A DNA stretch of 64,000 nt from Macrocystis pyrifera. Lineage: Eukaryota > Sar > Phaeophyceae > Laminariales > Laminariaceae. The stretch lies in assembly GCA_031763025.1 (NCBI GenBank), contig JASSKH010000010.1, positions 6,815,901 to 6,879,900 of the forward strand. The letters run 5' to 3'. A program made the position numbers and the translations under genes. The notes under the pieces are model-generated. The model saw nothing but the letters and a program-made list of their open reading frames with translations, was not told where the DNA came from and did not search any database. Shown one piece after another: positions 5,211 to 39,069 of this stretch (its first letter is position 1; each line of letters begins with the position of its first letter).

Positions 5211-5284
<74 letters not shown>
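5211..5284 (+). repeat. Poly(C) tract, 74 nt uninterrupted
   Basis: All bases from 5211 to 5284 are C, followed by AATAAA. It is the longest homopolymer in the window. Such runs are prone to assembly error, so the true length is uncertain. The Gly- and Pro-rich frames across it are artefacts. Confidence 0.95.
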
Positions 5285-5287
<3 letters not shown>

Positions 5288-5556
5288 AAAAAACAAAAAC
5301 GCGAGTTTTGAGAAGTGTTCTACGCGCCCATCACACAACCAAATAGCTTGGCTACGCCAGGGGACCATGGGAACACCCAAAAACCAATGAACCAGCGAAA
5401 CACCCAAACAACGATACGTATGGTACTATTTCCAAGATCCTACGACAGACAGGAGGGGGTACAACAAAATAGCACGCAACGAAAACGGGCAAACCCGACC
5501 GCGTCACAAACTCAATACCTACCACCCGCAGGTTTGCATATATAATTCGGACACAT

Positions 5557-6619: not shown

Positions 6620-6683
6620 CTATCGCCTAGCCTCGCACCTGCGTACAGCAGTGACGGCAGCGCTGCGATCCCCACACGTATAC
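6620..6683 (-). CDS. FRE/NOX gene exon 18 (terminal exon, residues 664-684 and stop)
   Basis: The acceptor ttctgttacaccag comes 188 bp after exon 17. Its first base completes Trp 664 and the frame then runs 20 codons (YTCGDRSAAV...) to TAG at 6620-6622. The sequence is not conserved in the family, so this end rests on phase and splice signals only. Confidence 0.55.
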
Positions 6684-9600
6684 CTGGTGTAACAGAAGCC
6701 CACTGTTCGGGCGAAGGACGGTCGCGCCTTTCGGCCACCAGCAAGCTCTAGTAATAAAAGGCTGACCCATCACCGATTGCACCGTCCTCGGCGGGAAGGA
6801 AGGGCTCATAATATTTTTTTGGGTTCGTTCGGGAAGCTTCACCACCGCGCCCAGAGGGTCGGCCTGGTCACCATGCTCCAAAGTACTCCTTCTGCCAGTT
6901 GACGCGGAGCTCGTCGCACGTCTTGGCGATCGCCTGTCGTCGTGAACCCCCACACCCGAAGGAAACATTCGGTGGTTGTTTTGTTTGTTGTCGTGCGCAA
7001 AGAAAACGCCCCGACAGAGACAGTGAAACGGAGACGGGGGAAGGACGCTCTCAGTGTATATTCATGGAGGTATTCGAATAGTGAAAATGAAACAACGGAT
7101 TGTTCTGTATTTTCAACAATTGTGATATCCCGTAAGCCCGAATTGTGGCAGCAACGACAGGTTGTGAAAATCGATGGCGTAACGTAAGATAAACCGGCGA
7201 CATGACGAGCGACGAAAAACGTGTTTTGACCCAATGAACATTGCAGGAACCGTGACGCTTCAGGTGTGGATTTTAGTCTCGTCAGTGGCAATGACCCCGA
7301 CGCAACTAATCGACCGGTCTATGCAGACGGCAAGACGCCGCCATATACAATGAGTACACCTCCAGCGCGGGGAATGGTGCTCGAGGCGTACTACGATAGA
7401 ATCCCACCCTACTTATTGTGAAGCTGCTCACTTGACCTTAAGGAGCTCCATACCTCACCCGAAGACTGACTTGAGCGAAAATCAAATTGCATCCCGATTA
7501 ATAATCCCATGGCCCAACGCATACAGAAAAAAGTCATTTTTCGAAACAAGATTGGCGTTCCGACGATTTTGGGTTACATAAGGAGCCTCGTCATTCCGAA
7601 AATAGTTTTTCAGAACTGTGCTACCTCTATCGTAGAACGCGTCCGGACGTGATTGCGGATGCAAGTGGGGGACAGCGGGAGAGACGTTCACTGTGCTCGC
7701 CCACTCTCGATACGTGGTATTCATAGCGTATTGCATGAGCAGCATTTAGTGGCATGCCTTTTACGTACGCAAAACGCTGTTCCCCTGCTGACGAGCGTGC
7801 GCTGAAATTTTTTCCTTGTGTGGCGTGAGAGCTCGAAACCACAGGCCCACCGGTGCACACAACGAAACACGAAAATACAAAAAAGGAGCGCTCCTTGCGA
7901 TGGAGAAAAACGACTCCGGTGTATGTATAAGCCGCGGGCAACCAAAAACGATGCATGCTACATACGGTACACGATAATAATGCACCTAAGGAGCTCTATC
8001 CTCCGCTACACCAACACGCGACCCTCGACAAAAATTCAAGAGCAACCCGGAAGAAAAACCGACTTCACGACGTAGATACATCGAAAAAGGGGGAAAAGAA
8101 ACAGACGAAATTCCAGCGAAAAGGCTTGTCCCTCACTGGGTGATACGTGCGTTTGAGCAGCCTGCTGAAAACCAAGTCAAACATTATTTAGCCAACAACT
8201 ATTAATAGAGATTCCTGAATCTTCTCTCGTCCAACGTCGGACACCACTACCAGAAGAGGAGGGTTTTCCGCTATGGACGTCGGTGAAGGGCGTTTGGTGG
8301 ACTATATCGACCCTTTCCCTGAATCGCGAGGCACTGCAATAGCCTACGACGACCGATCTAGCCTGACGAACCAGCCGAACGTCGCAAGTGCACGCAACCG
8401 ACCGCAGGATGTAAACGAGGTTTGCCGATTCAATAATATCAGCCTCATCTTATTCCACACGACCAACCCGCGTCCTGAACTAAATGCTCACCAACGCTAT
8501 CTCCCCCCCCCCCGCCCTCCGATACAATATACCTGGTATGTATAGGTTGGTATGTGCGGTTGGCGACGACGCTGTAAAAAAACGCCTCCACTAGGGTGAG
8601 TTAGATAGCCAGAGTACCGTATTATTTTTTTAGCGGTTACCATGGCTGGCGGCCGAGCTAGACAATTTTTTATGCGGGGAGAACTTTACTCCGCACAAGG
8701 GGGATTATCATATCACGTAGTGTGAATATGGTGAGGCACCCACGAGGCAGTTACATTGTAAATCCTTGTTGTCTCTGGAAGTGGCTACACGAGAAATTGA
8801 ATCAATTTAAATTTATTGATGCTGTCATCCACATTCAAGAAAATCCACCTCCTAGGCGGTTCTTAGCAGGATGCAGCTCACCGTTCACGCCACTCGCCCA
8901 ACACCTCACGGCGCTTCGCGCTTGGTGCAAGCAATGTCTGCCTGGTGGATAAAAATCGAATTGCTCCGTCTCGAAACCGTAGGGATGCGAGGGTCTCTAC
9001 GGTCATACGACTACGTCCATGCATAATAAAGAATGCCCCCCCCCCGCCCCCCCCCCCCACTCCTCGACTATGCATGGAAGCTAGGTAAGCGCCCAAACAT
9101 TTGAGGTGTCTATACTAGGAGTAGGAGCGGTGTTCCGTCTTGAAAGGGATGCGTGGTCAATGGTAAAATGACTAAGCCAAGCAAAAAATGAGTACGACTC
9201 CCCCCCCCCCCCTTCCCCCTGCCCCGCGCGCGTTTTTGAGCGGACGTATCGTACCTCTTCGACCTTGGGGTTGGCACCGCAGTAAAGCACGAGCCACGGG
9301 AGAGGACCGCCGAGCCTCTGGCTGGCGCCGTTAGTGTTGGAGCTACCGACCTGCACGGGGAGAACACCGTAAGAGATGGCAGAGATAATTCGTCGTGACA
9401 GACGAGAGAGAGTCAGCGGAAGACCTATTGACCACCAACCTCAATCGCCGCGACGGTCGACATGTTTGCCCGTCAGAAAAAAGGTATCCACTTTGCCTAA
9501 CATGTGTCTCAGCTATGTTGTCCGCATGCATTGGGGTTTCTCCATTGTGCTGCATGTTCAAAACGGGTTTCACATCAACGTCTCTTTCTGAACCAAAACG

Positions 9601-12600
9601 TTTACCTGGTACGCAACCATCTTTACAGAAATTCGATTGAACAGGTACATAATTTTCATCGATAGTCCCCTCTTCTCACGAATCATTCCCCACGGTAACC
9701 TCATCGTATGAATCATTTCCCGCGGTGGAGCTACGTAGTCGCACTGTATTTTTCCCGAACATGTTATGACCTGCGATGAGCTTATCAAGTGAGCGATTAC
9801 CAGCCACGCAACATGATATCTTGCAACAGAAGTAAAACAGTGCGTGTTTGTGACTACCAACTGTAGTGCCTAGAAACGATCGTCGGGTTGAGCTAATCCG
9901 GAGGAGCATCATCATGACACAGAGTAAACAGGACCTACGGTACAGACAAGAACCGATACATTATTTAATCCTATTTACGGTGGTCCTCCGTAATAACATA
10001 ATTTTCTTCGGTTTCATGTTTCGGGTGAGAGATTTTGAGCTGCTAATCTAAGGACCTCGGAAAACTAGTCACCACTCTTACCATGGCAGTTGCTCAAATA
10101 CAAATAGATACAATATATATAATATAGGTGTGTTTACTCAATTCAACATCAAAACAACAGCCGTGAGATCGAGAGTTTCCTCGAGAAAGAAACTCATATC
10201 CGCAAGCAACGCGCGGTACTTCGATCACGCGTACAGTGGGTTTTGTACATGGCCGCATTCAGGGTATACAGTCCGTACCGTATGCAAACAAAACCAAAAT
10301 GTGAAGCCGCAGAGTTCAAAAAGTGAGTGCGTCTAAATTGGGAAATAAATAAACAGAGACATACCAGGAATATATATATATATCTGATATATATATATAT
10401 AATATGTAAAAATTGGGAAACGGCTGGCAGAGAAGCGTATGAAGGATACTACTGATTTACGGAAGGATATTCGGCTTATATAGGAACGGTATCTACAGTA
10501 CGCTATATAGGAAGGCAAGCATAATAATAATAAAAATATATATATACATCCTATGTTCGAGGCTCGTGTGACGAGCGAAGAGCGAACATTTTTCCGCCAA
10601 CACCCTCGTCAACGACGACACTCGTCCCAATTTTAGCCGGGATCATTTTGAAGTCAGCGTTTGCTGAAGGGGCGGGGACATGTAGGAAAGCAGCGTCGGG
10701 AAGAACTGGACCGTTTTGAAGTCGCAAGAGACCACGGCAGTAATGTCGCTAGATCGGCTTGGTTCAAGAACGCTGCTTAAACACACCCCGCTCGCTTAAC
10801 CGCACGAGCGGCTAACGGTCCAGGAGAGCTATCGGCGCGGTTTTTATAATGTCCATTCGGGAACGAAAACGCCCGCGTTCGTTCCGGTGGTTTTTAGTTT
10901 GACAACTACTTGTTTACAGTCATTGATTGGGTCCTCCAACTCCCTACAAAAAACAACTACCAGGTACCTAGTATACTACTACAAGCTGTTTACACTTAAT
11001 CAATTTCGTTCGAGAACTCCCGCGACCGCGTTCTTTATGGTGGGTTTCAGTGTCATCACTGCCTACTTACTGCTGTAACAACTGTGTCAACCAGCGCTTC
11101 GTGACAACTGTTGTACCACTGTAGTAGTTGATACCACTTGATTACAGCCGGCTTACCCTAACACTTTTCATTCCCCCGCCGACGGCGGTGGGGTCGGCCT
11201 TCATCAGCATCTCCTTCGAGACCTTCTGGCTCTCGTCAAGTCGAACCGAACCCTGCGGGGCAAAAGAGAGGAGGAAGAAGAACAGACGCACCGGGGTGCG
11301 TGAAACTTTCAAGAAACATTTCAATACGGCTCTACGGAACCTGTGTATCACGCGACGACGGGAGGCAAGCCACACCCGAACGCCCCCACCGCGCTCCGCT
11401 ACTACCCAATCGCACACAACAAACGTCTGCGAAGATGGGCCATGCCACAATGTTCACCTGACTAGCGCAGTTTTGATTGGCCGAACCTTTCTGGCTGGCG
11501 GAGCTCCTCAGCCGTTTTCAAGACTGTAGCCCCGTCCTAGGGACGAAACACTCAAACTTTTAAAGTGGTTTATCCCAACACAGAACTACAAGCCTAAAAT
11601 TGTTGGCCGCGGAACTCTAACCTAATATCGTTAGAACAACCATTGTCGATAGCCTTTATCACTCTGTCCCAGATAAAGACCGTTTTGGAGGCAGTTTACG
11701 ACAGAGGGCCACAAACTAAATCTTCTGAGGCTCCTCACTTGAGCTCCACACCTCACCCGCAACCTGACTTTAGCAAAAATCGAATTGCACCCCCATGAAT
11801 TATATCATATGGCTCAAGTATCCCGAAGAAGAACGATATTTTTCGAAACAAGATTTGGCATTCCGACGATTTGGGGTTAAGGAGTCTCGTCACTCAGACA
11901 CCCTTTTCGGCGGAAATGTGCCACCTGTATGGCAGAACGCGTCTCCGTACCGACATTCAATCGAAACGGTCCCTATTTTAACGACAGTAGTGGTATACAT
12001 TAAGGGTTAGGGCTATAATTTTATATTTCCTTGCAAGCGGTGTTTGGGTGGAGGAATAGAGCTCCCTGAAGGGCAGAGCCCCGACGAATAAAATATAGGC
12101 TAAATTGACACGGCACGAAATTGAAACGTGGAAGTGTGGTGAGCTTGAACTATATTTTTACCAATCCGCCCGAGGATTAAAAAAAAACGCACCCCCCATC
12201 GGAGCACGTGCCCTGAGCCCTAAGAGAGGAACTTTTACAATACTGTAGATCAAGTATCCTGGGAAATCTGTAGGTGGTCTACTTCGAGGTGTCATGGTAA
12301 ATAGAACCTAGGGTACACACGAAAATATATATATATATATATATACATAGTTCGGTGTTTCTGCGAACAATGTTTGGTCCTACTTACTACGGTCCCCCGT
12401 AAATAGACTACACCACTCGTCATATATTACTGCTGTTGCACCCTTCCGCTGTAAAACCTCCCTCCCAATATCAGAACACGAAATTGGAGAGTTTTGACAA
12501 CACCGGGCTAGATCACGACCTCCTGTCGATATTCAACAACTACCACATGTAGGTTCCATTTTAATTCGTTTTATGGTGTACGTGTAACGCAAAACCCAGA

Positions 12601-15600
12601 GTACGAACGCCACACCATCCACACCATTTCTGTTGCACCACAAGTAGCATGAGCCGTGCAACCCAGATGCCACCCGCAAAACAAATCGACATCCCCCGCA
12701 CACCATGAAACATGACCAGGAATTCTTCCCCGAAATATCTAACTGTGCATCTGCAGACGCATGTCGCGATAAGGGCAGCATGGTAGCGTCAATATATTCT
12801 TCACTGATGGGGCTCCTAAACCGAAACATTTGCTGTATTGTCACAGGATTATCATCGGCTTGTCCCTTCACACTATTGTTTTAATACACACCCGTCCATA
12901 GACCATGGCGTCCATTCGTCATAGCTTTTTTTCGATTTCTCCTTTGCGCGGCCAGCGTTTGGGTATAGGGGGTTACAGAGAACTCTCCCAAGTCGGGACG
13001 CCTTTTGAAAGAAACTATGTCGGGGTACACCTCCATCTCCCCGCACGCCTCTTCGCAACGTGCAATGGAGATGGATCTGATCTGTGTCCCTAGATCTGTG
13101 AACACGAGTGGATGATTGACAACAACACCTACCTCTCGCCCGGGAGCCGTCCGCTTCACTTCCCTTCCGGTGGAAGTCATCGAAGCGCTCGCACCAAACT
13201 CAGAAGCGTCGGGAGGCATGTCCGTGTACTTCTCGAAGGTATCCGCGAGGTACTTTCCGATGTTCGGACGGCCAAAAACCAGCGTCACCGGTTTGGCCGG
13301 CTTGCTTACCGTCCTGACGGACCCTCGTCGTCGCAGCTGGCCCTGGTAGAAGATTAGTCCGCGGCGACAGCAAAAACAAATCCGGCGGGGAGGATATAGA
13401 GCGGGCGTTCCACGTGGCATGCATGCATCTGGTCGTGTTATTTCCTGCTATGAACGGAACCCTTGCATGCCTACAATGCCGGGAGGGAGCAGCTTCTGGT
13501 TTGCACCGACCACAGGCGGACGTTGCTACGGTGCGGCCGGGAGTGTACACATGTGGCGCATCTGGTCGTAGTTGTATGGCCAATAGAACCTTCGTATACC
13601 AGAGGCAGAGATAACTGGGGGGAGGGGGGGGAGGGGGTTGTAGGGAAGGATCTTCGTTTTTATGGTTGCCGGGGGAAAACTATTGCTATTGCTCTCTCCC
13701 TCTTGTCTCATTGGACACTCAAACCGGGAGCACCGGAATTGAGAGCAGCTGGATCGCCACGTGTCGCCGTGTTCCCATCACGGTGAACGCCAGGTCCATG
13801 TCAATCATAGGTTTATGTACACACCGTTTTTCACCTCGCGCTTCTCAAACTGTACGAGGACTGCCGTTAGTAACCTGACAGGCGATGAAGTAGCGGTAGC
13901 GCTTTCGTGCAGTATGATCATTGCGGGTTCGTGGCCCCTCGTGGTTGCACCGTTTGGGTGGTACGAGCTCGATGTCGAGGCTCACCCACCGGTTTTGTTT
14001 ACGTTCCTTGTTTTGTGTCCCTCGATTTTCTGTTTCTTTGTGATAGTTTTGATGGGTATTCAACGTTCAAGCAAATCTTATCCTAGCCACAACGTAGCAA
14101 GCCTCGTCTCACCAAGTCAAACTTCTTCAGCGAGAGTGCCTCTTGGTCCACGACCGCCCGTCCTGCGCTGGTGTCAGGTTTGTCGGATTTCGTCTCCCCC
14201 TCGTCACCATTTTCGGTCATAGTCTCCATCCTGGGCAGATCAAGAGTTTGAGCGAAAGTGTGAGAAACAGTCGTTAGTTTTGCGCGGATGTGGCATTATT
14301 AAGGATTTTAGACTGTATACCCTTCGCCAAAATACGGTACACAGTTCGAGGCACGGAGCGTTCTACCATCGGGGTGCCTAAGTCGTACGGAGCACGTTTT
14401 GGTCGAAATAGTTCAGCCCGATGGCGGGCTACCCGACCGAATAAACCGAGGAAGATTTTAACAGATCTAACCGTTTTTCTTTAATGCGACAGCCTAGCTG
14501 ACCTACGCCATGGGATGGGATTACTCGTGGGGCTGAGCGTGCACCGTTTCTCAACGCCGATTGTTGCGTGAGGAGGCGTTCTACGATAGAGGTATCACAG
14601 TTGGGAACACGAAGTTATGAGCCGCCACGGCATCCTTACCGGGAGCCAGTTGAAGGAGGTACATACAGTACCCCAGTTCGTGGGGATATCTATCTGCACC
14701 TAAGCATTGAAGGTTCGGGGCGCGCCGCACACATCCCAAACATCACTCACGTTCACATGCTTGTTCCCGTTAAATCCCGCATTATAGGGCGACACAGGAG
14801 CCCTCAGAAAATATAGTGTGAATCCTTACCGTAGAATGCCTCCGAAATCGATACAGAGCAACCTTAAGGGAAAGAGTCTACAGTGAACAAATTATCAAAA
14901 TCCTTACAGATATGGCGGACACGACGGCAGAATACCCTGGGAGGTTGTGTCCCGTTCAGTCTTCGCATCACACACGCCACCACGCCACCAGCTCGACTGC
15001 CTTCGGGTGCTGTTTGTAATTAAAACCCCAGAACCCGCGTTCCAAACACGGTCCACGAATCACACCACAGCTCAGGTACGTTTGAAAATCAACCACTCAA
15101 TCGTTCGAATTCTGTGTTTACACAAATGTTTGCAACGATCTAAATTAAAAGTTCAGAGTGTTCACATCATGAATTGCCAAACTGTACTTTCGGTCCTGGA
15201 CAAGGCGGTAGCAACTGACCTTGGCTGTCCTTTGGGTGCGAAGGCGTTGCTTCTGATGACGGACCACGCCGCCTTGCGGAAGGATGGGGCCGTCTGCGAT
15301 ATCACATCAATTTTGGTTTTGACGGACGACAGCGGTGAAGCAACGGCCATGCAGCAGTGCAGAGAGCGTCGGCACAACCAAGGGGGGAAGGTGTCTTGAT
15401 TGAATCCCTTGAACCTAGAATAAGATGTTGTGGCTCTTCCTGCCGCCTCTTTTCCGTCCCGTACGGAAGTACCAACGTCACAGAAAACCATAACGCTCAT
15501 AATCGTACACGTATACTTCCGACTAATTCTAAAAACTAGCGTTCACGTAAACATCGGGCATATATATGCAGTCATCTACACAAAAATCTAAATCCTGTTC

Positions 15601-27600: not shown

Positions 27601-30600
27601 ATCAAGAGCAAACTAACAGGGAAACTTGGACAAAACATGCTTCGAAAAAAAGCACGGCCCTGACTACCTGTTCAGGGTGGCGATGGTTGGGTCGTTCGCG
27701 CGCGCGCCTGGGCTGCCCGATGCATGCGCAAGAAATGTAGAACCGCTTGCCACGATAAGCGGCAGCACGTTTGGGCCAAGCCATCTTTATTTGACTGGGC
27801 CCCCTATCTGAGGACCTACCGTATACGTACAGTAATGGGCCCTCAATGGTGCCGGTATGTGCCAGCCAACAATACTGGCACTAGTTACTCCGCACACTGC
27901 CACACCGATTGGTAAGCCCCCTCATGTACCCAGCGATTCCACAGGCGCCATTTCTGGCGGCCGGCGGCACTACGCGACCAGCCCTATGAAAGGGACCGCT
28001 GCTGCTGTAACTACAGTAGTAAGTACTGTTGGGATATCGTTGATTTCTTTCCATGACTACCTGCATATATATCTCGGCCATGGAATCGCTCAATCTTAAC
28101 CGAATCGCTCAGGACTACAGTCCCGTTTAGGGGACAAGCTGCTGTAGTTAAGAATTTGAGCGCTTTGTCCACTAAACGAGAGTGCAGTCCTAAAATGGTA
28201 AAATCTACCTGAAAAAAAACGTAGAAGGCTTTGGAGCTACCCCTACAGCAGCACACCTCTTTGGCGTTCCAGGTCCTGCCCCCCCCCCCATGAGTACCCC
28301 CCCCCCATAATACTATATACATATTTTATGGGTTGGGTTGGCGTCGGTTGGCAATGACACTGTAAAACATGCCGCTCACTACGTGAGACGTCCAGGGTAC
28401 CGTTTTTTTTTGTTTTGGCGGCCGCCCACAGCTGGTCGTCTAGTTAGATATTTTGTGCGAAGTAAAGAACATCTACTCTGCACAAGGGAAATGATCGTAT
28501 CACGTAGTGTTCAAGGTAAGGCACCCAAGAGGCAGTTACATAGTACTCCCATTGCTGTCTCTGGAAGTGGCCGCACTGGAAATTAAACTAACTCATTGAA
28601 GCTGTCATCCATATGCAAGTCCGTCTCACAAGCGGTTCTTAGTAGGATGCAGCTCACCCTTCATGCGACTCGCCGGACACCTCACGGCGCTTCGCGCTTG
28701 GTGCAAGCAATGTCTGCCTGCTCGGTGAAAACCCGACGTGCTCTGTCCCGGCGTTGTAGGGATGCGAGGGTCTATGGTCATACGACTGCGGCCATGCATA
28801 TGAGATCGAGTATATCTCTCCTATCGAATACACCCACCCCACCTGCTGCCCGCGTTTTCCCTAAGATCAGGAACTCCATAAGTTCAAACTGAAAACCCTC
28901 TTGCCCACCGTGGTATCGGTAACTTGTCCAAGCCCTAACTACGGTATACGCACTAATGATTACGGACATCGCGCCCCCGCTATCCCATCGTACTTGTGTC
29001 CGAGGGAGGCCATCGATTCGAAGACTGGTGCTACTGTAGGGGGGGGGGGGGGGGTGTACTGGATAGGAGAGATGTACTCGATCTCATGCATGGCCGTAGG
29101 CGTATGACCATAGACCCTCGCATCCCTACAATGCCCGGACGGAGCATGTCGGGTTTTCACCGACCAGACCTACATTGCTTGCACCAAGCGCGAAGCGCCG
29201 TGAGATGTCCGGCGAGTCGCATGAAAGGTGAGCTGCATCCTACTAACAAGGGTGGGAGCGGGTATGATGCCATGACTTCCCCTACCGCGTCTACTGTACT
29301 AGAACGAGTGGTTTTTGTATGTCGCTCGGAATTCGAACGCAAAAAATATTTAACGCAAAAAATATTTATTGTGGTGCAAGAACAATCAATCGCCCGTCGG
29401 TGAACATCGCGAAATAAAATATATTTCAAGCTCCAAGACATGAGATGGCTGCTCAGCCGAGTGGCTCTCGTCGATTGAAAATATAGAAGATAAGAGCGCC
29501 CCCCGTGCCGCAGCACCAGTCCAAAATAGAAACCCTCCTTTCCCACAGCGCTATAACGTGAAGGTAAAACGGATACTCAATATTTCTTGCACAAAAGAAC
29601 TTTTAGTTTACGCTCACATGTGTGGACATCGTGGGTCGGCTCGAAGTCTAGCACGGCACCCAGCCAGGAGTGGTGGACGTACGAACGAGTGGCGTAGTTC
29701 TTGGAGAAGATGGCAATCGTAATGCTCGCGAACAAAATCCCCGCGGACATACGAGATCCGGTGAGGAGGGCCAGCTCGAGAGGGGAAGTTGCGCAGATTA
29801 CACTGGCAGGAGGAGGAAAACACGCGGTGCGAGTTCAACAATTAACACGAGCGGGCTGGTGCGATGGAACGGGTGGCGATCATCACTTGGGCTTCGGGTT
29901 GAGTCGTGTCAGCCCGTGTTTACCACCGCACTGCGGTTTTGGGGTCAAAACATTTGTAATTAGAGTCCGATTTTGGTTCCTGTCCAGTACAGCAGATAGA
30001 GGTTAAAAATGGGGCTGGGCACGGCCTGACTCAGCCAATAGCGATCAGACTGTCATCAAAACCAATAACTGGATTGCAGCAGAGTTGGGTGCTGTCTCTC
30101 CTCTTTTACTCTCTCTTCCCGACAAGCCTTTAGTGTGCTTCCGTACTATAATATAGCGCGTTACTTGGGCGTACGTGAGATCAACACTGCTGACGGATAT
30201 ACGGGCTAGGCCAATCAGTGGAATACTACTGCCAGTACATACTGTGCCAGTGTCCAGCCCCCGTGAAAAGAATTGTCAGGTACAGTACACCGTAGGCGAT
30301 GCCACCTCATACTTTTGGTTGTTGTGACTACTGTGCATGCCGTACGGCCGCCAACCAAAACTCGTTAACGCCCACCGGGTGCCATTGAGCGTCTATAAAG
30401 CGCAGGCATAACATACAGCAGGGTGCGGCGGCGGCCTGTCCACACACGCCATGCGCTGTAATCTATTAGTAGTTCAACTTGTGTACCCCCCGTTAAATCC
30501 TACAGTACTTCGACGGGTATGTAGCCTAGGAGAAAAGCAGCGCACACATCCAACTGCTGTCAATTTTCTACGATAAAGGTGTGTCCCTGCCTGCCGGGTG

Positions 30601-33600
30601 GGCCAAGCCGTAGCGCTCGCTTTGATTGTTTACACTGCCGCGTGGACTCTACGCAGGATAAGACAAGGACGCCGGAAATCGGGTCAACCCGTGTGGGACT
30701 CTACAGTATCCATATTTCTGTGAAAAACTACTACAGTAGGCGCTCGAGTTCGATCGTGTTGTTCAGAGGAAAACGTGTTTTAAGCTCGCGCGGAAAATGT
30801 CTGCGATGTCGACGCTGTCGGCGCGTAACCAGCGATTGTCCCTCGTGCGGCAGCGCCAATCGGTGTCGGCGTATGGCTCACGTATAGGGACAGATTTCTC
30901 CCTTATCCGCATCGTAGAAAAAGAACCATGGGTTGGTGGCCATGTACAACGCTGAGCATGCCGTAACCTGTAGATGACAAAAAAACAAACATCCAGCAAG
31001 AGTAGTGGGTGGGGGGAGGGGGGTATCCATTGTCGCGCATAGCCGTAGGCGTCGGACCGAAGACTCTCGCATCCCGATAATGCCGAGATGGAGCACGTTG
31101 GGGTTTGGTCGACTAGGCGGCCATTTCTTTGACCAAGCGCGAGGCGCCGTCAGGAGTTCGGTGAATTGCGTGAAGGGTTACTATTAGCTGCATAGCAACC
31201 GCTTGTGAGGTTGGCTTTCTTGCACGTACATGACAGCGTCGAATGAACTGGGGAAAAGGGGGGAGTACACACTTGCATTTCCCAGGACTACGTGGTCCGT
31301 TTTGCCATGTAAAACAAGACGTCCAGCACGACGAAGGGGCGGGGACGGGGGGTCAGCTGCATATTCTCAACGAGACGAGCAGCAAGTTCTGATGCTAAAC
31401 CACTAATACAAAGCACCACGAGTAGGGACGACGGAATAGCTGCATATTCCCAGCGCCTGCTATACCGACTGTTTTCGTACTACTCGAATTGGAATTGACT
31501 ACCTACGTATTATGCGTCCTTAAGGAATTTCTCAGCTCCTCTTCTTCTTCTTCTTCTTGTCCTGCGACCACGGACTCAGTACGTTGGGCGTGAGGTAATG
31601 TGATAAAATCATAGCCAAAAACAACAGCTTACATAAAACCTCGCCCCGATTCTCAATGCCAATTCACCGCGCTGCAAAACCAAACCTCTACACATACATT
31701 TAAAAGTATATAATACACATACATTCAAAAAAGCATCATGACTATTCGTTAACCGCATGGGACGTGTTTTCTATCTACTCCCCCGCGACGCGTACTATAC
31801 GATAAAGGGGTGGCAATGTTTGGCCGACATATTCGTGACTGGTTTGGACTTTTGAACGAAGGGACTAGGGCAGCAGTAGCAGTACTGCTCTTCTTGCACC
31901 CAACAACGTCAGTTTGTACAACAGACGTCATACACTCAACATCGTCTTATTTTGTACAGCGAACATTTTCGTTACAAACCTATGCTCGCAGCGAACGAGA
32001 TTTCTGCTGGTCTGCCTTGATATTTAGCGTATTTTGTTTGCTTTGAGCCCGCGTTTTTGGGTGAGGTCAAAAGAAAACTCACAGGAAAAGGGCTCGACAA
32101 AATTGTAGGTGCCCTCCCTCCTGCCGAAACATGCGTCACGCGAGCCAACAACGCGGCTCACGCGCCTATCATAGAACAGGGGACGCCCACCCACATGAGA
32201 CGGGGGAATGTTTGACCGAGCATGCCGCCCCACTGCCGCCGAATGTGTGTGGTGCGTTAGGCTTCGTCTCGGAAAGATGTCCACGGGATTATTTGCTCTT
32301 TTTTTTAGGGTTTTTTTTTAAATAGAGCTCAAAAGTAAAGGGCTTGAGAAAATCGCAGATGCCCTCCCTCCTACCATACATAGTATATAATAGCATGCGT
32401 CACACCAACCACCAACGCGACTCGCACCCATCATATATATAGGGACTCCTATCCCCAATGGGGCAGGCGAAACGTCTTTTTGAATGTTTGACCGCGTTTT
32501 TACCAAAAATGATGCCGCCCCACCGCTGCGTGTATGGTTCGTTCGTCTTCGCCTCTGCACGATGTGGTGCCGAAGGATATTGCTGCGTTTTTTTGTCCCG
32601 CAAATTTATACTATTCATATTAATAGTACCACGGGGTACCTGATACACTGTACATATTTGTGTAGTGGTCAATTTCGGCATGGGGTATGTACTCTGTAGT
32701 TACGTATTACTAGTTTAACTTTTTCACCATGCGCATTTATTATAGTCTTCTTCGTTGGGCAGTCTTGAGCCTATTCCAGGGAGATGAACGAGCCACAAAG
32801 TGCTATCAGAACGTTCGACCTCGAAATCGAAAATTCCCACCGCTATCACGCACCCAGTACGTGTTTGACTTGAGACACGCACCGTACTTGTATTGTGGTG
32901 TCAGGTTGACATCATATCATACACGTGAAATCGTGGTGCCGACTTGGTGACAAGGAGCTCGGAGTCGCCCTCCAGCCGTCCTCGCCTATGTAAACACTAC
33001 CTATATAGGGCGACATTGCAAAAAAAAAAACGTGTCTGTGTACACGGCGACACGCCCTATATAGTACCACTCAGCCGTGTGGCGAACGTGATGCCATATT
33101 GAGTGCCAAGTATGGGGTGTGGAACTGCGACAACACGTGTGTTCTAACGTGTGCTCCGGTCGCACATTTGGTTTCAAGCTTGACGCCCCGCTTTCGCTCA
33201 ACAGCATTTCATCTGAATCAGCTGCAATAGGGAGCGCAGCTGTAAAGCGATACGGCAGGACCACCTGGTACAACGGATTTTACTATATCGTTACTCGCGC
33301 TACATGAAGGAGTGCCCGACACTGAGACACTCACAACGAGAAAAAACTAGCGCCTAAATGACTCCCAAACATGTAGAGAAAACTAACCCTCTGCCATAGC
33401 AGAAATGCCCACTTGGTCAGCCGACCTCTAGGTATAGGCTCTCACACATGCCGTTTTCGGTGGCTCTCGCTTCAGCGTGACTTTTCCAACGTTGGAGGGA
33501 AGGCCTGACACCCCCCATCCTCTTCGTTACGTCTGTTACTTCGCTACCAGTCGGGTGGACCGTCGTTTCGTATTCCGCATCGACCCGCATGCTGTGCCGA

Positions 33601-35599
33601 TGTCTTCATGCTCTCCAATGCTCGCGTCCTACTCTTGACTGTGGCCACGGTGCTGTGTGGTCGGGGGAAGGGGCGTTGGCTGGCTTTTTTTATTTGGTAC
33701 CGGCGTCGTTCGAACAAGGCGACCGTCCGCCATCTATATAGTAGGTGCTACTAGTAGTTTACCTGGTATATATTTCAAGTGTCTGCCACATCTCCTGAGG
33801 GGAGGCATGAAAGCTATTTTTTTTCATTTTGCTCTCTCTTTGGTTTGTTTTTTTCTTGTTTGTTCCGTTTTGTTACCTCCTAGTTATAGAATGTGCATCT
33901 CGTGTCCAGTATGATTGCATGGCATTGCGTTGTCTACTCTGCTTACTGCATGACAGTGTAGTTGGTGTAGTATCTCTGGCGAGTTTAGTGACCACGGAAC
34001 TTGGAACTCTCTAAGACTGAAGAATCGGCACGAACACTGGTTGTCCTGGATGTCGGCGGGTAGAAGGAAGGGTTTAATGTGAACAACACACATACATATT
34101 GGGCGACTCGCCTTGTATGCGCTCCAATTGATGGCCCTGTCAAGCCGTTTTAGGCGTGCTTGCCTCATCATGTGTGCTTCATCCACAAAAAAAGAAAAAC
34201 AACAGCCGTGAGATACGTATGCTTGTAGGAGGAATCCGTCTATGTTTTTTGTAAGCTCTGTGTGAACGTTTATCGCGCGTACTACGTACGGGTTTAATGT
34301 TACAGGACCACTTCTGTTGTCTCGTACTCGTATGCAGTGTACCAGGTACGAGGTATACGTATCACTGTTTTATTTTTGTCTGAGGTGTCGATGTACTTCA
34401 GTATCATGTGCATTATTCTTTGCTTGTCTTTCATTTCTACCGAGGTATTTTCCACTCTAAAGTTATTGGAGCCTGTCCTGCGACCACAGAATGCATTGTG
34501 TTGTGGCCATGACTAAATGTGAGTATGTGAGAACAACAATAACCACAACGCTCAGCCATGCGAGATAATTCGGGTACCTGAAAGCTAACGCTAACGTAAG
34601 TGAAGTCGTCTTTGCCGCGTCACAGCAGTCACACTGGAAAATGCGCCGCAGGTGTATCGCCGTGATATTTGAAACACAGCACATATTATCTGTGCGAAAA
34701 ATAACCCAGCAGCAGTCATCTTCGGAGCACGGTATGTAGTCTACGGTAGTAATATATTTACGTGTAGTGTAGTCCTGTCCCGTACTCACGATTTTGAGGA
34801 ACGTCATCACGGACATTCGCTTCTCTTCGGAATCGCTTCCGTCGTCAGGATCGAGACCGATATTTTCATCCGTAACAACGCCAGACGCTGTAGCGGCACC
34901 GCCCTGGTTCTCCACGTCCCGGTTGGGGTCGCCAATACGCCTGAATGACATACGAGGCTCTGGCCCTGGCATCTCTTTCACATCCGACATATCGGCACTT
35001 GCAGCAGCGGTTGGAGTACCTGTAGTACAAGGGCGCGTGCGTGTCAAGACGCGGGACACACGAAGCATAAATAAATGATCGATGCAGTACACGCTTATGA
35101 CGCTATTGTTCCATCCATCGGTGCGATAAAATCGAGAAGAGTGTCGAGACTGCTTGATTGAACGCGTGCAACCGGGTGTTCTGCTTTCTCCATAACAGTA
35201 ACCGACTGTGAGGGACGCGGCCGAACCCCTGCTTTCTTTACCACGTTCGTCATCTGGGGGTAGAAGCGATCGTCGGTCGTCGGGGCTTACACAACGGAAT
35301 TAAGCGAACGTTGTGAAGGCGCGATCGACACGAGGTTTACGGCAACAAGACCCCTCGATGGAGGTGGCATATTCAGTCAAGGCCATTTTATCCGGCTACC
35401 TCTCGTACATGCCTCGTACTTCTGCATCCGGGTTGCCTTGTTTATACAGTGCAAAGGCTTCTTTTTAGATATCTCATATTTTATACCAGGTATTGTTTTC
35501 GTGTGCAACAGGACGACAAACAAAGTGTGGCAACATGCCCGCGCCACCACCAGAGGCGCGCCTACCTGCACCCCGAACTCGATGATCATCGGTCATCAT
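6620..35599 (-). CDS. Split gene for a ferric reductase / NADPH oxidase-like transmembrane oxidoreductase (18 exons, 684 codons)
   Basis: This membrane flavocytochrome should move electrons from cytosolic NAD(P)H through FAD and two hemes across a membrane, to ferric iron (FRE) or oxygen (NOX). Exons, in order: 35566-35599, 34790-35019, 34514-34633, 30882-30967, 29618-29802, 26867-27048, 25833-25978, 24969-25040, 23737-23866, 21437-21551, 18616-18670, 16973-17048, 15977-16072, 13133-13342, 11157-11252, 9255-9350, 6872-6933, 6620-6683. All junctions are GT-AG, phases agree throughout, and the total is 2055 nt. Predicted membrane helices are near residues 109-130, 175-190, 217-240, 256-271, 287-303 and 308-324. 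Heme ligands H217/H231 and H289/H302 have the spacing of the NOX family. HPFS (375-378) binds FAD; GAGITP (440-445), GRP (533-535) and YCG (634-636) form the NAD(P)H domain. No EF hand is visible, so FRE and NOX cannot be told apart. The least certain parts are exon 1, the exon 3 donor and the last exon. Confidence 0.88.
6872..6933 (-). CDS. FRE/NOX gene exon 17 (C-terminal helix, residues 644-663)
   Basis: The exon encodes AIAKTCDELRVNWQKEYFGA, which continues smoothly from PKVEE of exon 16 as the final helix and aromatic tail of the domain. Borders are cgacgacag| and ATG|GTGACC. It ends with two bases of a codon. Confidence 0.87.
7425..7660 (+). repeat. Family H repeat, copy 1
   Basis: It shares about 230 bp with 11730-11965: GACTTGAGCGAAAATCAAAT, TTTTTCGAAACAAGAT, TTCCGACGATTTTGGGTTA and the end CGTAGAACGCGTCC. 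Nothing in it is coding. It probably is a dispersed element of unknown class. Confidence 0.7.
8573..9060 (+). repeat. Family C repeat, long copy ending in C tail
   Basis: About 490 bp. The 5' part (GTACCGTATTATTTTTTTAG, TTTACTCCGCACAAGGG, TATCACGTAGTGTG) matches the copy at 28320. The 3' part carries GGCGCTTCGCGCTTGGTGCA, then AGGGATGCGAGGGTCTCTAC, and ends in a long interrupted C run (about 9035-9058). No long frame is preserved. Confidence 0.8.
9095..9215 (+). mobile_element. LINE-II 3' tail with C tail
   Basis: GAGGTGTCTATACTAGGAGT, GTGTTCCGTCTTGAAAGGG and ATGCGTGGTCAATGG correspond to the C-terminal codons of the LINE-II remnant at 18.8 kb on the other strand. The frame runs into a C tract (about 9198-9212) that would code for prolines. 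Confidence 0.65.
9255..9350 (-). CDS. FRE/NOX gene exon 16 (C-terminal YCG motif, residues 612-643)
   Basis: After the acceptor tgttctccccgtgcag the exon encodes LPWLVLYCGANPKVEE. The Cys-Gly near the C-terminus is the conserved end strand of the NAD(P)H domain. It is phase 0 at both ends, with donor GAG|GTACGA. Confidence 0.9.
9351..11156. other. Intron 15 of the FRE/NOX gene
   Basis: 1806 bp. It holds a MITE fragment (9925-9996) and TA-rich microsatellites (about 10369-10402). I recognise nothing in 10560-11156. Confidence 0.7.
9925..9996. mobile_element. MITE-like element, family A, fragment
   Basis: Only one end is clear (CCTATTTACGGTGGTCCTCC then GTAATAAC); the other end is decayed. 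It lies in intron 15 of the FRE/NOX gene. Confidence 0.5.
11157..11252 (-). CDS. FRE/NOX gene exon 15 (linker before the last strand, residues 580-611)
   Basis: A textbook acceptor (cttcctcctctcttttgccccgcag) precedes GSVRLDESQKVSKEMLMKAD and a glycine-rich end; the donor is AGG|GTAAGC. It is phase 0 at both ends. The sequence is not itself diagnostic of the family, and its place rests on position, phase and splice signals. Confidence 0.78.
11517..11605. mobile_element. Hairpin element, family B, degraded copy
   Basis: The arms can still be aligned (GACTGTAGCCCCGTCCTAGG against ATCCCAACACAGAACTACAA) but many positions have changed. It lies in intron 14. Confidence 0.5.
11730..11965 (+). repeat. 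Family H repeat, copy 2
   Basis: It aligns with 7425-7660 over its length (AGCAAAAATCGAATTGCACC, TTTTTCGAAACAAGATTTGG, TTCCGACGATTTGGGGTTA, CAGAACGCGTC) with several small indels. Confidence 0.7.
12286..12405. mobile_element. MITE-like element, family A, copy 2
   Basis: The right end is intact (TTTGGTCCTACTTACTACGG then TCCCCCGTAAATA). The left end is degraded, and the middle has expanded into a TA dinucleotide tract (about 12326-12346). It lies in intron 14. Confidence 0.7.
13133..13342 (-). CDS. FRE/NOX gene exon 14 (GRP motif, residues 510-579)
   Basis: The exon contains KPVTLVFGRPNIGKYLADTF; the GRP motif is the conserved NAD(P)H-domain turn. A low-complexity linker rich in Ser, Thr and Arg follows and ends at GAG|GTAGGT. 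The frame stays open for another 84 codons past this donor, but exons 15-17 supply the missing YCG motif, so splicing is preferred. Confidence 0.88.
13343..15976. other. Intron 13 of the FRE/NOX gene
   Basis: 2634 bp without any repeat I recognise. Frames at 13463-14222 and 14947-15399 are open but unlike any family I know, and no exon is needed here because exons 13 and 14 join in phase 0. Confidence 0.6.
15977..16072 (-). CDS. FRE/NOX gene exon 13 (residues 478-509)
   Basis: The exon encodes LKKVNSTVHLTGKPEEN, matching the family's third beta strand followed by 'TGK'. It is phase 0 at both ends, with borders ttgagcag| and CGC|GTGAGGA. Starting three bases earlier (a cag repeat at the acceptor) would add one Gln without changing the frame. 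Confidence 0.88.
16073..16972. other. Intron 12 of the FRE/NOX gene
   Basis: 900 bp with a reversed family C fragment at about 16140-16330. A short internal repeat (TTCTGCTATAGANGTTCGTCC twice, near 16483-16560) follows it. Confidence 0.65.
16140..16330 (-). repeat. Family C repeat, reversed partial copy
   Basis: The minus strand reads the family core (GGTCGTTTGAAAACCGGACG and nearby words), and a G-rich stretch at 16142-16158 marks its C-tailed end. Confidence 0.6.
16973..17048 (-). CDS. FRE/NOX gene exon 12 (residues 452-477)
   Basis: The exon encodes FASRKNIHLMWMSRDGGIVA and then LFEKQ, the second strand and helix of the NAD(P)H domain, where the family usually has a 'W..RD' pattern. It starts with one base that completes Arg 452 and ends in phase 0 at CAG|GTGCGC. 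Confidence 0.9.
17049..18615. other. Intron 11 of the FRE/NOX gene
   Basis: 1567 bp. It contains a G run (about 17327-17338) and the telomeric insertion at 17788-17810. I see no other element. Confidence 0.65.
17776..17822 (+). repeat. Interstitial telomeric repeat flanked by a 12-bp direct repeat
   Basis: Four TTAGGG units in a row lie between two perfect copies of TATAGCACTGTT (17776-17787 and 17811-17822). The arrangement looks like telomeric DNA added at a staggered chromosome break, which duplicated the target. It lies in intron 11. Confidence 0.85.
18616..18670 (-). CDS. FRE/NOX gene exon 11 (NAD(P)H pyrophosphate loop, residues 434-452)
   Basis: This 55-nt micro-exon encodes VVLVCTGAGITPAVSIIE, the glycine-rich loop that holds the NAD(P)H pyrophosphate. 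The acceptor is gtggtcggacag and the donor AG|GTGGGC. It starts with two bases and ends with two, matching exon 10 and exon 12 exactly. Confidence 0.92.
18780..19800 (-). mobile_element. Decayed 3' end of a second LINE family (LINE-II)
   Basis: On the minus strand, broken frames keep the flavour of a LINE C-terminus: VPKLEYAREVRQRNAKLAKQ, a zinc-finger-like MCPCGKAIE then SHIVGQCEMYNEELDVF, and SEKTIAILG. Many stops and frameshifts interrupt it, so it is dead. It ends in a G run on the plus strand (C tail of the element). The RT core is missing, so the copy is 5'-truncated. Confidence 0.75.
19800..20230 (-). repeat. Family C repeat, reversed copy
   Basis: The minus strand carries the core words (GGCGCTTCGCGTGTGGTGCG, GATGGTCATACGACTACGGC-like) and the 5' words seen at 28320. 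The plus strand begins with a G run and AGTGTACTCGATAGG, the complement of the element's C tail. Confidence 0.75.
20597..20680. mobile_element. Hairpin element, family B, copy in intron 10
   Basis: CTGCAGTCCCGCTTTGGGGA and GTCCCCAAAAAAACGGGACC then GCTGTCT form the two arms. The element sits in an intron of the FRE/NOX gene. Confidence 0.7.
21437..21551 (-). CDS. FRE/NOX gene exon 10 (VGDWT segment, residues 396-434)
   Basis: It starts with VGDWTKELF, the family's typical end of the FAD barrel, and continues with PLWITAAQPSLMEKSIYFDN before the nucleotide-binding strand. It ends with one base of a codon at ACG|GTAAATG. That base joins exon 11, which lies about 2.8 kb downstream. Confidence 0.92.
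21796..21962 (+). repeat. Three-unit minisatellite of about 50 bp
   Basis: Units share CTCCATACCTCACCCACAAA and AAACATACATTTGTGTACGG. The first word also occurs at the start of family H, so the array may derive from that repeat. Confidence 0.7.
22127..22250. mobile_element. Hairpin element, family B, one copy plus half of another
   Basis: A full unit (GTTTCGGGGACAAACCACTC ... ACACGGGACTGCGGTCCT) is followed at once by a second left arm (TTTTGGGACTGCAGTCCCGT). This suggests tandem or nested insertion in intron 9. Confidence 0.7.
22350..22455. mobile_element. MITE-like element, family A, copy 3
   Basis: GGGGGACATAGTAAGTAGGA at the left pairs with TCCCATTTACTATGGTCCCC at the right, around the family's ACCTATATATTTAA core. 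It lies in intron 9, just after a family B hairpin element. Confidence 0.78.
23737..23866 (-). CDS. FRE/NOX gene exon 9 (FAD-binding HPFS motif, residues 352-395)
   Basis: The exon encodes GYTFKAGSYIYVN and EWHPFSI. The HPFS tetrapeptide (375-378) contacts FAD in the FRE/NOX superfamily. The acceptor is gtgtttgcacag and the donor GCG|GTGAGTGC. An earlier GTGCCAG inside the exon is not used, because reading through gives the family-like AAVYVEA joined to VGDWT of exon 10. Confidence 0.93.
23867..24968. other. Intron 8 of the FRE/NOX gene
   Basis: 1102 bp with an A/T-rich block (about 24350-24560). An open frame at 24704-24964 resembled an exon at first but was displaced by the better exon 8. 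Confidence 0.6.
24969..25040 (-). CDS. FRE/NOX gene exon 8 (start of FAD domain, residues 328-352)
   Basis: This 72-nt exon has a long pyrimidine tract before its acceptor (ctttctgttccag) and a GTGAGTGC donor. It encodes TFLINHPVFEAVGKGTMVSF, the usual strand after helix 6 in this family, and ends on the codon shared with exon 9. Phase, length and sequence all fit. Confidence 0.9.
   Translation of the reverse strand, partial: DLLDQPPRFRGSGEGNNGFFRPA
25644..25753. mobile_element. MITE-like element, family A, copy 4
   Basis: The left end TTACGGGGGTCCATAATTAC and the right end TCCTATTTACTATGGTCATC then CGTAATAA are recognisable with a few mismatches. It lies in intron 7. Confidence 0.75.
25833..25978 (-). 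CDS. FRE/NOX gene exon 7 (helices 5 and 6, residues 280-328)
   Basis: The exon reads FEFRKGLHMLFLLMLIAICF and then H302, giving a second histidine pair (H289/H302) thirteen residues apart, as in NOX2. Helix 6 (FVGTILIVWYILDRLYF) leads to the cytosolic domain. Borders are tccgcag| and CA|GTGAGT. An apparent stop just after the donor lies in the intron. Confidence 0.92.
26867..27048 (-). CDS. FRE/NOX gene exon 6 (helices 3 and 4, residues 219-279)
   Basis: The exon encodes helix 3 (FGYLTLISGYEHGLLHCARH) with H231, fourteen residues after H217. This is the same spacing as the outer and inner heme histidine pair of animal NOX2. A short loop and helix 4 (GMVACLLLLPIVLPM) follow. It starts after aaaaacag and ends at AAG|GTGGGA in phase 0. 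Confidence 0.9.
28108..28196. mobile_element. Hairpin element, family B, copy in intron 5
   Basis: The arms AGGACTACAGTCCCGTTTAG then GGGACAAG, and CTTTGTCCACTAAACGAGAG then TGCAGTCCT, pair almost perfectly. Confidence 0.78.
28320..28850 (+). repeat. Family C repeat, longest copy
   Basis: About 530 bp with clear 5' words (GTCGGTTGGCAATGACACTG, TACTCTGCACAAGGGAAATG, GAGGCAGTTACATAGTA) and 3' core (CTTCATGCGACTCGCCGGAC, GGCGCTTCGCGCTTGGTGCA, TAGGGATGCGAGGGTCTATG). It ends near a C-rich stretch (ACACCCACCCCACC). Confidence 0.82.
29037..29256 (-). repeat. Family C repeat, reversed 3' part
   Basis: After a G run (about 29040-29054) the plus strand reads TGTACTGGATAGGAGAGATG and CATAGACCCTCGCATCCCTA, the complement of family C. 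With the copy at 28320 it forms an imperfect inverted pair 190 bp apart. Confidence 0.8.
29618..29802 (-). CDS. FRE/NOX gene exon 5 (helix 2 to first heme histidine, residues 157-219)
   Basis: The acceptor follows a pyrimidine run (ttttcctcctcctgccag); the donor is CAT|GTGAGCG. The exon encodes SPLELALLTGSRMSAG, a hydrophobic helix (ILFASITIAIF), the loop SWLGAVLDFEPTHDV, and at its end H217, the first axial heme ligand. The final base plus the first two of exon 6 make one Tyr codon. Confidence 0.9.
30882..30967 (-). CDS. FRE/NOX gene exon 4 (extracytoplasmic loop, residues 129-157)
   Basis: The exon follows a strong acceptor (tttttttgtcatctacag) and ends at TAC|GTGAGCC with two bases of a codon. 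It encodes an aromatic segment (NPWFFFYDADKGEICPY) between helices 1 and 2. Only this frame is open and protein-like, and both phases fit the neighbouring exons. Confidence 0.85.
31005..31190 (-). repeat. Family C repeat, diverged reversed copy
   Basis: The plus strand reads GTGGGTGGGGGGAGGGGGGT, then GACTCTCGCATCCCGATAAT and AAGCGCGAGGCGCCGTCAGG, the complement of the family core with many changes. Confidence 0.6.
32040..32570 (+). repeat. Diverged tandem duplication, unit of about 270 bp
   Basis: Two units share AAAGGGCTCGACAAAATTGT / AAAGGGCTTGAGAAAATCGC, GCCCTCCCTCCT, GCATGCGTCACNCNANCCAA, GAATGTTTGACCG and GCCGCCCCACNGC in the same order. The units have diverged strongly. Confidence 0.7.
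33002..33062. repeat. Short inverted repeat (hairpin)
   Basis: CTATATAGGGCGACA near the left edge pairs with CGACACGCCCTATATAG at the right; an inner GTGTCTGTGTACACGG adds a second stem. No coding content. Confidence 0.65.
33775..34095 (+). repeat. Solo terminal module of the APE-type LINE
   Basis: It has the ordered words GTGTCTGCCACATCTCCTGA, a T-rich stretch, AGTATGATTGCATGGCATTG, GTGACCACGGAACTTGG, GAATCGGCACGAACACTGGT and TAGAAGGAAGGGTTTAATGT. The same order is found at both ends of the long LINE copy (55950-56300 and 60600-60975). Confidence 0.75.
34514..34633 (-). CDS. FRE/NOX gene exon 3 (first membrane helix, residues 89-128)
   Basis: The acceptor is cgcattttccag. The exon codes for a Cys-rich stretch (CDCCDAAK) and then a hydrophobic helix containing AWLSVVVIVVLTY. 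It ends in phase 0, as exon 4 requires. The donor is weak (TTA|GTCATGG), and a dispersed repeat begins just downstream near 34480, so the exact 3' border is the least secure of the internal junctions. Confidence 0.7.
34634..35565. other. Introns 2 and 1 of the FRE/NOX gene (separated by exon 2)
   Basis: Intron 2 is 156 bp (34634-34789) and intron 1 is 546 bp (35020-35565). Neither shows a recognised element. Confidence 0.65.
34790..35019 (-). CDS. FRE/NOX gene exon 2 (cytosolic N-terminal tail, residues 12-88)
   Basis: The exon lies between a pyrimidine-rich acceptor (cccttgtactacag) and a perfect donor (ATC|GTGAGT). It encodes a hydrophilic, acidic tail with an Asp/Ser/Glu cluster (DPDDGSDSEEKR) before the first membrane helix. 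No known domain is recognisable. Low-complexity N-tails are common in this family and carry little functional information. Confidence 0.75.
35566..35599 (-). CDS. FRE/NOX gene exon 1 (start exon, residues 1-11)
   Basis: Two consecutive ATG codons (35599 and 35596) open a short frame, MMTDDHRVRGA, that ends at a good donor (GCAG|GTAGGC). It ends on one base of a codon, which fits exon 2 starting with the last two bases. The alternative is translation from the ATG at 34990 inside exon 2 (MSDVKEM), with this segment untranslated. The upstream frame is open for some distance, so a longer N-terminus is also possible. Confidence 0.5.
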
Positions 35600-38805: not shown

Positions 38806-38960
38806 CCTGAACATGAGATAATGAACGAGGCAACATATGCAATCGGTAGAGTACTGAACGCTGCAACATTATCCAATATATGCGGCATATTTTCGTCGGT
38901 AAAGGGTACTAGCGTTTAGTGGTATCGATTAGCACGTTGCTCACTTTAGTAGTACCGATT

Positions 38961-39069
38961 ATTACGGGGGACCATAGTGAACAGGACCAAATACTATTGT
39001 TGGTAAAAAAACCAAATATAGAGGTTTTTGTGTGTACCATAGGTCCTATTTACTACGGTCCCCCGTAAT
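38961..39069. mobile_element. MITE-like element, family A, copy 5 (best preserved ends)
   Basis: Ends are ATTACGGGGGACCATAGTGA and CCTATTTACTACGGTCCCCC then GTAAT, a nearly perfect inverted repeat of about 28 bp. The core is in the opposite orientation to copies 1-4. This copy best defines the element's ends. Confidence 0.85.

Follow-up and report, generated by a model that had tools for sequence, protein, structure and literature searches.

A hidden fifteen-exon gene of a tandem family in the giant kelp Macrocystis pyrifera and its putative NOX-type flavocytochrome product

Introduction

Can a functional gene be concealed in a region where no single open reading frame reveals it, and, if so, what would its product do? 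The question is raised by a stretch of 64,000 nucleotides from the giant kelp Macrocystis pyrifera (contig JASSKH010000010.1, positions 6,815,901 to 6,879,900 of the forward strand), which is referred to below, as a whole, as the window. An earlier note on this DNA had claimed that a multi-exon gene of the ferric reductase/NADPH oxidase (FRE/NOX) superfamily, invisible as a single open frame, lies between positions 35599 and 6620. The claim is borne out, on the minus strand and within these limits, by paralogues, splice sites, selection and protein profiles.

Gene Structure

The hidden gene, termed G1 here, is real. It comprises 603 intact codons in 15 coding exons on the minus strand, from window position 34990 to 6868; the coding sequence thus lies inside the span first proposed, and 15 exons with 14 junctions take the place of the 18 and 17 that had been counted. 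In the joined-exon model, each of the 14 introns has GT-AG borders and keeps the codon phase, which is what had been said of the junctions. The coding exons are 55-210 nt long and so are not the micro-exons that they had been called.

A genome search with the PF08022 profile matched the minus strand of the window at 23716-23862 and six further sites of the scaffold to which the window belongs (C190). When the frames of the window were compared with 200 kb around these six places, a ladder of short conserved peptides was found in the same order. The exons are collinear in the six paralogues (G2-G7), in G4 only through exon 8. In-frame models have GT-AG introns at 14 of 14 positions in each of G1, G2 and G3, at 13 of 13 in each of G5 and G7, and at 13 of 14 in G6.

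All of the following exons of G1 are on the minus strand. Exon 1 (201 nt, 34790..34990) runs from the start codon, which was picked by inspection, to FLKI and encodes a hydrophilic N-terminus; its donor (AAAATC followed by GTGAGT) is present in all five copies where exon 1 could be placed; in G5 and G7 it was not located. Exon 2 (86 nt, 30882..30967) follows the first hydrophobic segment; it is collinear but variable in length, with the acceptor offset shared by five of seven copies and the donor offset by three. Exon 3 (185 nt, 29618..29802) carries the second hydrophobic segment and H156, at the position of NOX2 His-101. Exon 4 (182 nt, 26867..27048) covers TM3-TM4 in alignments with NOX5 and NOX2 and contains H170 (His-115), H174 (His-119) and S195-G196 (Thr-178/Gly-179), while TM5, with H228 and H241 (His-209 and His-222), is in exon 5 (146 nt, 25833..25978). 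The linker from TM6 to the FAD domain is encoded by exon 6 (72 nt, 24969..25040), the FAD-binding HPFSI and the TM6-FAD glycine by exon 7 (130 nt, 23737..23866), where PF08022 is matched on the joined protein, and the loop ITAAQPS, which stands in place of VXGPFG, by exon 8 (115 nt, 21437..21551). The acceptors of exons 3-8 and the donors of exons 3, 4, 5, 7 and 8 are at matching offsets in all seven copies, the donor of exon 6 in six of seven.

The remaining exons encode the C-terminal part. Exon 9 (55 nt, 18616..18670) encodes the NADPH-binding VLVCTGAGITPAVSI; both of its splice offsets are shared by five of six copies, and in G2 both fall at a shifted block edge. Exon 10 (76 nt, 16973..17048), with NIHLMWMSRDGG, has both sites conserved in 6/6 copies, and exon 11 (96 nt, 15977..16072), with NSTVHLTGK, has its acceptor in 6/6 and its donor at the same offset in 5/6. 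The FGRPN motif is found in exon 12 (210 nt, 13133..13342) within a conserved FGRP block and is followed by a variable linker, which continues through exon 13 (96 nt, 11157..11252; acceptor 6/6) and ends in exon 14 (96 nt, 9255..9350; donor 5/6), where LVLYCGANPKVEE is also encoded. Exon 15 (66 nt, 6868..6933; acceptor 6/6) provides the C-terminus EYFGAW and the stop codon TGA. Both ends of exon 12, the donor of exon 13 and the acceptor of exon 14 were set by hand with the frame kept, as was the donor of exon 2 in G2, G5, G6 and G7, and these edges are therefore weaker than the others. There may also be a 5' UTR exon or an additional small linker exon.

Since the splice offsets are the best among 65-70 tried per edge, with a second offset tied at some edges, an independent test was needed. 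Profiles of ten exons of constant length were run on two copies, G9 and G10, both of which had been outside the model building. Nineteen of the 20 exon searches were successful, with scores of 76-248 against runners-up of at most 23, and exactly at the predicted sites AG was found for 19/19 acceptors and GT for 18/18 donors; exon 15 of G9 was not found within the 10 kb examined. The probability that an in-frame chain was simply built from noise is thus practically negligible. Such an explanation could draw on the fact that the earlier joins were picked by eye, and on the hand-set edges of exons 12-14 and the choice of the best offset elsewhere, but the conservation among paralogues, the splice sites that hold in the left-out copies and profile matches well over the cut-off all stand against it. 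The recurrence of exons and splice sites also agrees with the earlier argument that the junctions are more than chance.

When half of the gene was read through frame by frame against the PDB, relatives were found from exon 7 only, and in the remaining two frames there was at most a weak match by chance. A genome search with the PF08030 profile, which proceeds exon by exon, gave no matches because this domain is split by introns. The earlier note also held this to be the only protein gene in the window that looks functional. Bearing on that view, ten long open reading frames were scanned, seven of them outside the gene (from 208 of at least 70 amino acids there); two encode reverse transcriptase, and the other eight have no family above the cut-off.

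Introns and Mobile Elements

The introns of G1 are 792-3822 nt long and total 26.3 kb, while the totals in G2, G3 and G6 are 11-16 kb. They had been described as filled with transposons. Dispersed repeats are indeed present, but "filled" goes too far: 5,342 of the 26,311 intronic bases (20%) recur in the gene, in the rest of the window or in the 200 kb paralogue regions, a share that counts some nucleotides flanking conserved exons and for the rest is a minimum estimate. Six repeat segments were tested and gave 7 to 38 hits each in 230 kb. One dispersed repeat occupies 28321..29252 in intron 3 and has 208-nt inverted arms (28636-28843 and 29042-29249); a copy of this repeat family in intron 14 (8622..9058) is matched 17 times in 230 kb of other kelp DNA. 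Another lies in intron 1 (33905..34100), the part at 33964-34100 having 18 hits in 230 kb. A short repeat, roughly 110 nt in length and likewise dispersed, is found at 22351-22453, 25640-25754 and 38960-39071; the first two segments are matched 34 and 38 times in 230 kb of kelp DNA.

Elsewhere in the window, a LINE-like element is located on the plus strand at 56328-60126, with PF00078 reverse transcriptase across two open frames (56961-58778 and 58516-60126). The segment 36530-37618 is 72% identical to C190 8355578-8356674, where the frames resemble the 3' portion of a LINE of this type; the frames in the window are often interrupted. A long homopolymer-rich tract with poly-glycine frames at 5211-5300 is shared with C190 near 8324.1 kb.

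Gene Family and Selection

G1 is one copy in a tandemly duplicated family with at least 15 members in the cluster. Comparison of the joined protein with the genome gave at least 73 scored exon matches (73 of 192 candidates were scored). Among the scored matches are 16 to exon 3, all on C190, of which 15 lie at 6.78-8.39 Mb, a span of 1.6 Mb, and the sixteenth lies at 11.30 Mb. Within the cluster, the minus strand carries the three copies at 6.78-7.14 Mb and the plus strand those at 7.68-8.39 Mb. With a decayed copy on C127, the family occupies at least 17 places, 16 of them on C190; the DNA of 10 of the 17 was read.

Over exons 3-8, nine copies are 64-85% identical; G1 groups with G2 (support 0.97) and G6 with G7 (0.99). 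Exon 7 is 96.9% identical between G1 and G2, whereas nine other exons of equal length are 74-87% identical, and of the next 50 intron bases, 44 match after exon 7 and 15 after exon 8. Exon 7 and the adjoining intron (23691-23875) have thus likely undergone recent gene conversion between these two copies, to judge from the local identity.

Nei-Gojobori dN/dS was 0.115-0.260 in all 15 pairs of G1, G2, G3, G5, G6 and G7, over 336-368 codons. The highest value belongs to the pair G1-G2, and the larger share of the amino-acid change falls on G1 (dN to G3 of 0.156 for G1 and 0.118 for G2). In a comparison of 347 positions, 8 changes are private to G1, at sites where the six other compared copies agree, and these are mostly conservative; the other copies have 2-19. 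G1 is under purifying selection. The low dN/dS and the few private changes indicate a constraint that is perhaps slightly relaxed.

These figures bear on the idea that G1 has been silenced or is decaying, its sequence intact but unexpressed, in a cluster that also has broken members. Its introns have the greatest summed length among the six modelled copies, its amino-acid sequence has changed more quickly than that of G2, and other copies have suffered: exon 6 of G6 is damaged, G16 has in-frame stops, and a stretch of about 16 kb downstream in G4 yielded none of exons 9, 10, 11 and 15. Even so, silencing is distinctly improbable for G1 itself, given 603 codons without a stop or frameshift, 14 of 14 canonical introns, dN/dS of at most 0.26 in the five pairs that include it and the conservative nature of its private changes. 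We infer that G1 is expressed.

Individual copies differ in their state. In G6 (L013), exon 6, at C190 8304030, has a shorter exon reading and a non-GT donor, unlike the six other copies, and G6 may be broken. In the copy on C127 (G16, L035), a Tyr replaces one heme histidine in addition to the stops.

Protein Domains and Heme Core

Two of the three Pfam families named in the earlier note as a check were found on the joined protein, namely PF08030 (E = 6.3e-10, 39.8 bits, cut-off 22.2) and PF08022 (1.5e-9, 38.3 bits, cut-off 22). Both are above the cut-off in G1 and G2 and are matched by all five family members. The third, PF01794, was not reported for the G1 protein at E up to 10, in a search where most hits with E beyond roughly 0.1 are discarded by the HMMER filters; it is matched by two of five family members, with a best E of 0.0026. 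No EF-hand family was found in the Pfam scans of G1 or the family members.

A genome-wide search with PF01794 gave matches on C220 only and none in the G1 family. Five matches lie at 0.6-1.12 Mb of C220 (L028-L032), the best with E = 1.5e-15, each open in a single frame across almost the full profile. They represent another clustered family of ferric-reductase type, separate from that of G1.

Among solved structures, the G1 protein best matches 8cak/5o0x (8.6e-15), human NOX5 (7.8e-11), NOX2 (9e-10) and DUOX1 (7e-8). The 8cak/5o0x chain was deposited as a putative ferric reductase, and we take it to be Cylindrospermum stagnale NOX5. In the NOX5 alignment, H156 and H170 correspond to the first heme pair, H228 and H241 to the second. 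The spacings of 14 and 13 residues are those of NOX2 and NOX5, and the spacing reported earlier as equal to that of NOX2 is thereby upheld. In a first reading, the His-101 position appeared to be Gly through a misplaced end of exon 3; the donor conserved in 7/7 copies gives the join HTY and the spacing of 14.

All four heme positions are His in 9/9 copies with exons 3-5, and the positions of His-101, His-119 and Gly-179 are His, His and Gly in 9/9 copies with exons 3-4, the Gly-179 assignment resting on a weak NOX2 alignment. The same weak alignment places Ser at the Thr-178 position in 9/9 copies. The TM6-FAD glycine (Gly-322) and HPFSI are present in 10/10 copies; G16 reads GLYI with a stop nearby.

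Hydropathy exceeds 1.2 at residues 59-77, 92-127, 197-215, 227-245 and 247-265. A further heme helix is placed at about 156-178 by the alignment, in a region where hydropathy stays below this threshold. We take the last hydrophobic peak, at 368-389, to be the NADPH-binding strand. At the hydropathy threshold there is no hydrophobic segment past residue 389, and the four extra helices that NOXD/preNOX have in the dehydrogenase part were not found. The stretch between GRPN (472) and LVLY (570) varies among copies in both length and sequence.

Altered Motifs

Contrary to the earlier claim, not all of the hallmark motifs are in place. Firstly, VXGPFG is absent, and ITAAQPS stands at its place in all ten copies read. 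According to the excerpts of PMC1940245, this motif is conserved in NOX and Duox (conserved residues having rare exceptions) and kept in yeast FRE, and NOX2 point mutants in such regions lose ROS output. In the alignment with NOX2, ITAAQP faces IAVDGP, and the alignment with 8cak leaves the GPYG stretch of that protein unmatched. Secondly, CGP, which we take to be a NOX feature of the last NADPH-binding segment, reads CGAN in 6/6 copies with exon 14 and 5/5 aligned proteins. Thirdly, the chain ends in W, with the stop codon right after it, in 7/7 copies with exon 15.

A lost exon encoding GPFG between exons 8 and 9 was considered and rejected: no frame conserved across the six introns (603-2766 nt) was seen; the best shared frames there are low-complexity or repeat-like, and GP is encoded only in frames from G1, G2 and G3. 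The direct join of exons 8 and 9 encodes V, L, I, I, V and I in the six copies, as a hydrophobic strand would require.

Proposed Function

The reading favoured here, at a probability of roughly 0.7, is that G1 is an intact nuclear kelp gene for a membrane-bound flavocytochrome whose core is of the NOX type and which would pass electrons from NADPH by way of FAD and a pair of hemes to O2 outside. The hydrophobic helices would hold two b-hemes, and the FAD- and NADPH-binding domains are predicted to be cytosolic. NADPH would reduce FAD, the electrons would cross the membrane via the two hemes, and O2 on the far side, as the most likely acceptor, would be converted to superoxide. The variable, charged linker from GRPN (472) to LVLY (570), the last strand that binds NADPH, may have a regulatory role. 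G1 is NOX-like in its working, but it is filed neither as a canonical NOX nor as a canonical FRE, since VXGPFG is absent, CGP has become CGAN and the C-terminus is Trp.

The main rival to O2 as the acceptor is metal reduction. A metalloreductase would use the identical electron path and deliver the electrons to Fe(III) or Cu(II) outside the cell, in the service of metal uptake by the kelp. The loss of VXGPFG, the Ser at Thr-178 and the C-terminal Trp all deviate from NOX, and HPFSI agrees with HPF(S/T)(V/L/I), one of two motifs, with C(G/A/V)P, by which the multi-copy FRE genes of diatoms are recognised (excerpts of PMC4460010). Nevertheless, a metalloreductase is rather unlikely. His-119, which sets NOX apart from metalloreductases (PMC3591440, in part), is present in 9/9 copies, and the second diatom motif is lacking, with CGAN instead. 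Yeast FRE keep VXGPFG according to the excerpts of PMC1940245, and its loss is therefore no pointer to FRE. The separate family on C220, with its good PF01794 matches, is probably the better FRE candidate.

On the reading of G1 as a NOX-type oxidase, the invariance of ITAAQPS in ten copies suggests another mode of NADPH binding or gating and not a loss of function. It is tempting to speculate that the family is a kelp branch of the FRE/NOX superfamily that kept the NOX heme core and rebuilt the FAD/NADPH interface (VXGPFG to ITAAQPS, CGP to CGAN, a variable linker), and would thus form a distinct subfamily of transmembrane oxidases; this wider proposal is possible but tentative.

Kelp haloperoxidases require peroxide, and algal NOX have, to our knowledge, been little studied. 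The NOX-core cluster offers candidates for the oxidant source of kelps. According to excerpts of the literature, many algae release superoxide, the kelp Laminaria digitata among them (PMC5016757); respiratory burst oxidase is raised in the sorus of S. japonica, as are SOD and haloperoxidases (PMC11333212); and one NOX transcript of Saccharina latissima is specific to females (PMC6742357). For Ectocarpus, NOXD-like genes are listed without functional proof in the part consulted of PMC7730656. Among the open-access matches listed, there was no report of a brown-algal or kelp NOX or ferric-reductase cluster of this kind, and the main text of the giant-kelp genome paper (PMC10498591) contains no mention of NADPH oxidase or ferric reductase. 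A cluster without the motif region that mutation of NOX2 showed to be important, as far as the excerpted mutant data go, provides a natural test of the role of VXGPFG.

Comparison with Known Systems

The closest likeness is to the NOX5 type (human NOX5 and 8cak/5o0x), which gives the best structure matches and shares the heme-histidine spacing, His-119, HPF(S/T) and the TM6-FAD glycine. Unlike this type, G1 has no EF-hands that were found, no VXGPFG, CGAN for CGP, a variable linker and a C-terminal W. With NOX2, the cytochrome b-245 heavy chain, G1 shares histidine pairs 14 and 13 apart and a short N-terminus without EF-hands, but it differs in the absence of VXGPFG and CGP and in the Ser at Thr-178.

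Fungal FRE, diatom FRE and plant FRO have the same domain order and HPF(S/T). In contrast to them, G1 possesses His-119, and C(G/A/V)P and VXGPFG are absent. The signature that distinguishes NOX from metalloreductases in the excerpts of PMC3591440 consists of four positions (His-101, His-119, Thr-178 and Gly-179), and the G1 family has three of them, namely His-101, His-119 and Gly-179.

The NOXD/preNOX proteins of red algae and stramenopiles, as described in the sections seen of PMC1940245 and PMC3591440, resemble G1 in being algal, in being without EF-hands and in having a long stretch among the NADPH-binding segments. However, G1 is without their four extra helices, by hydropathy, and has the His-119 that is missing in stramenopile and red-algal preNOX (PMC3591440, same sections). 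Missing EF-hands are common in algal NOX according to the excerpts of PMC6685483. The NOX of the raphidophyte Chattonella, with 5-6 helices, is described there as a stramenopile protein without an EF-hand and with few helices, a description that suits G1 as well; such EF-hand-less raphidophyte NOX may be the nearest relatives of the G1 family.
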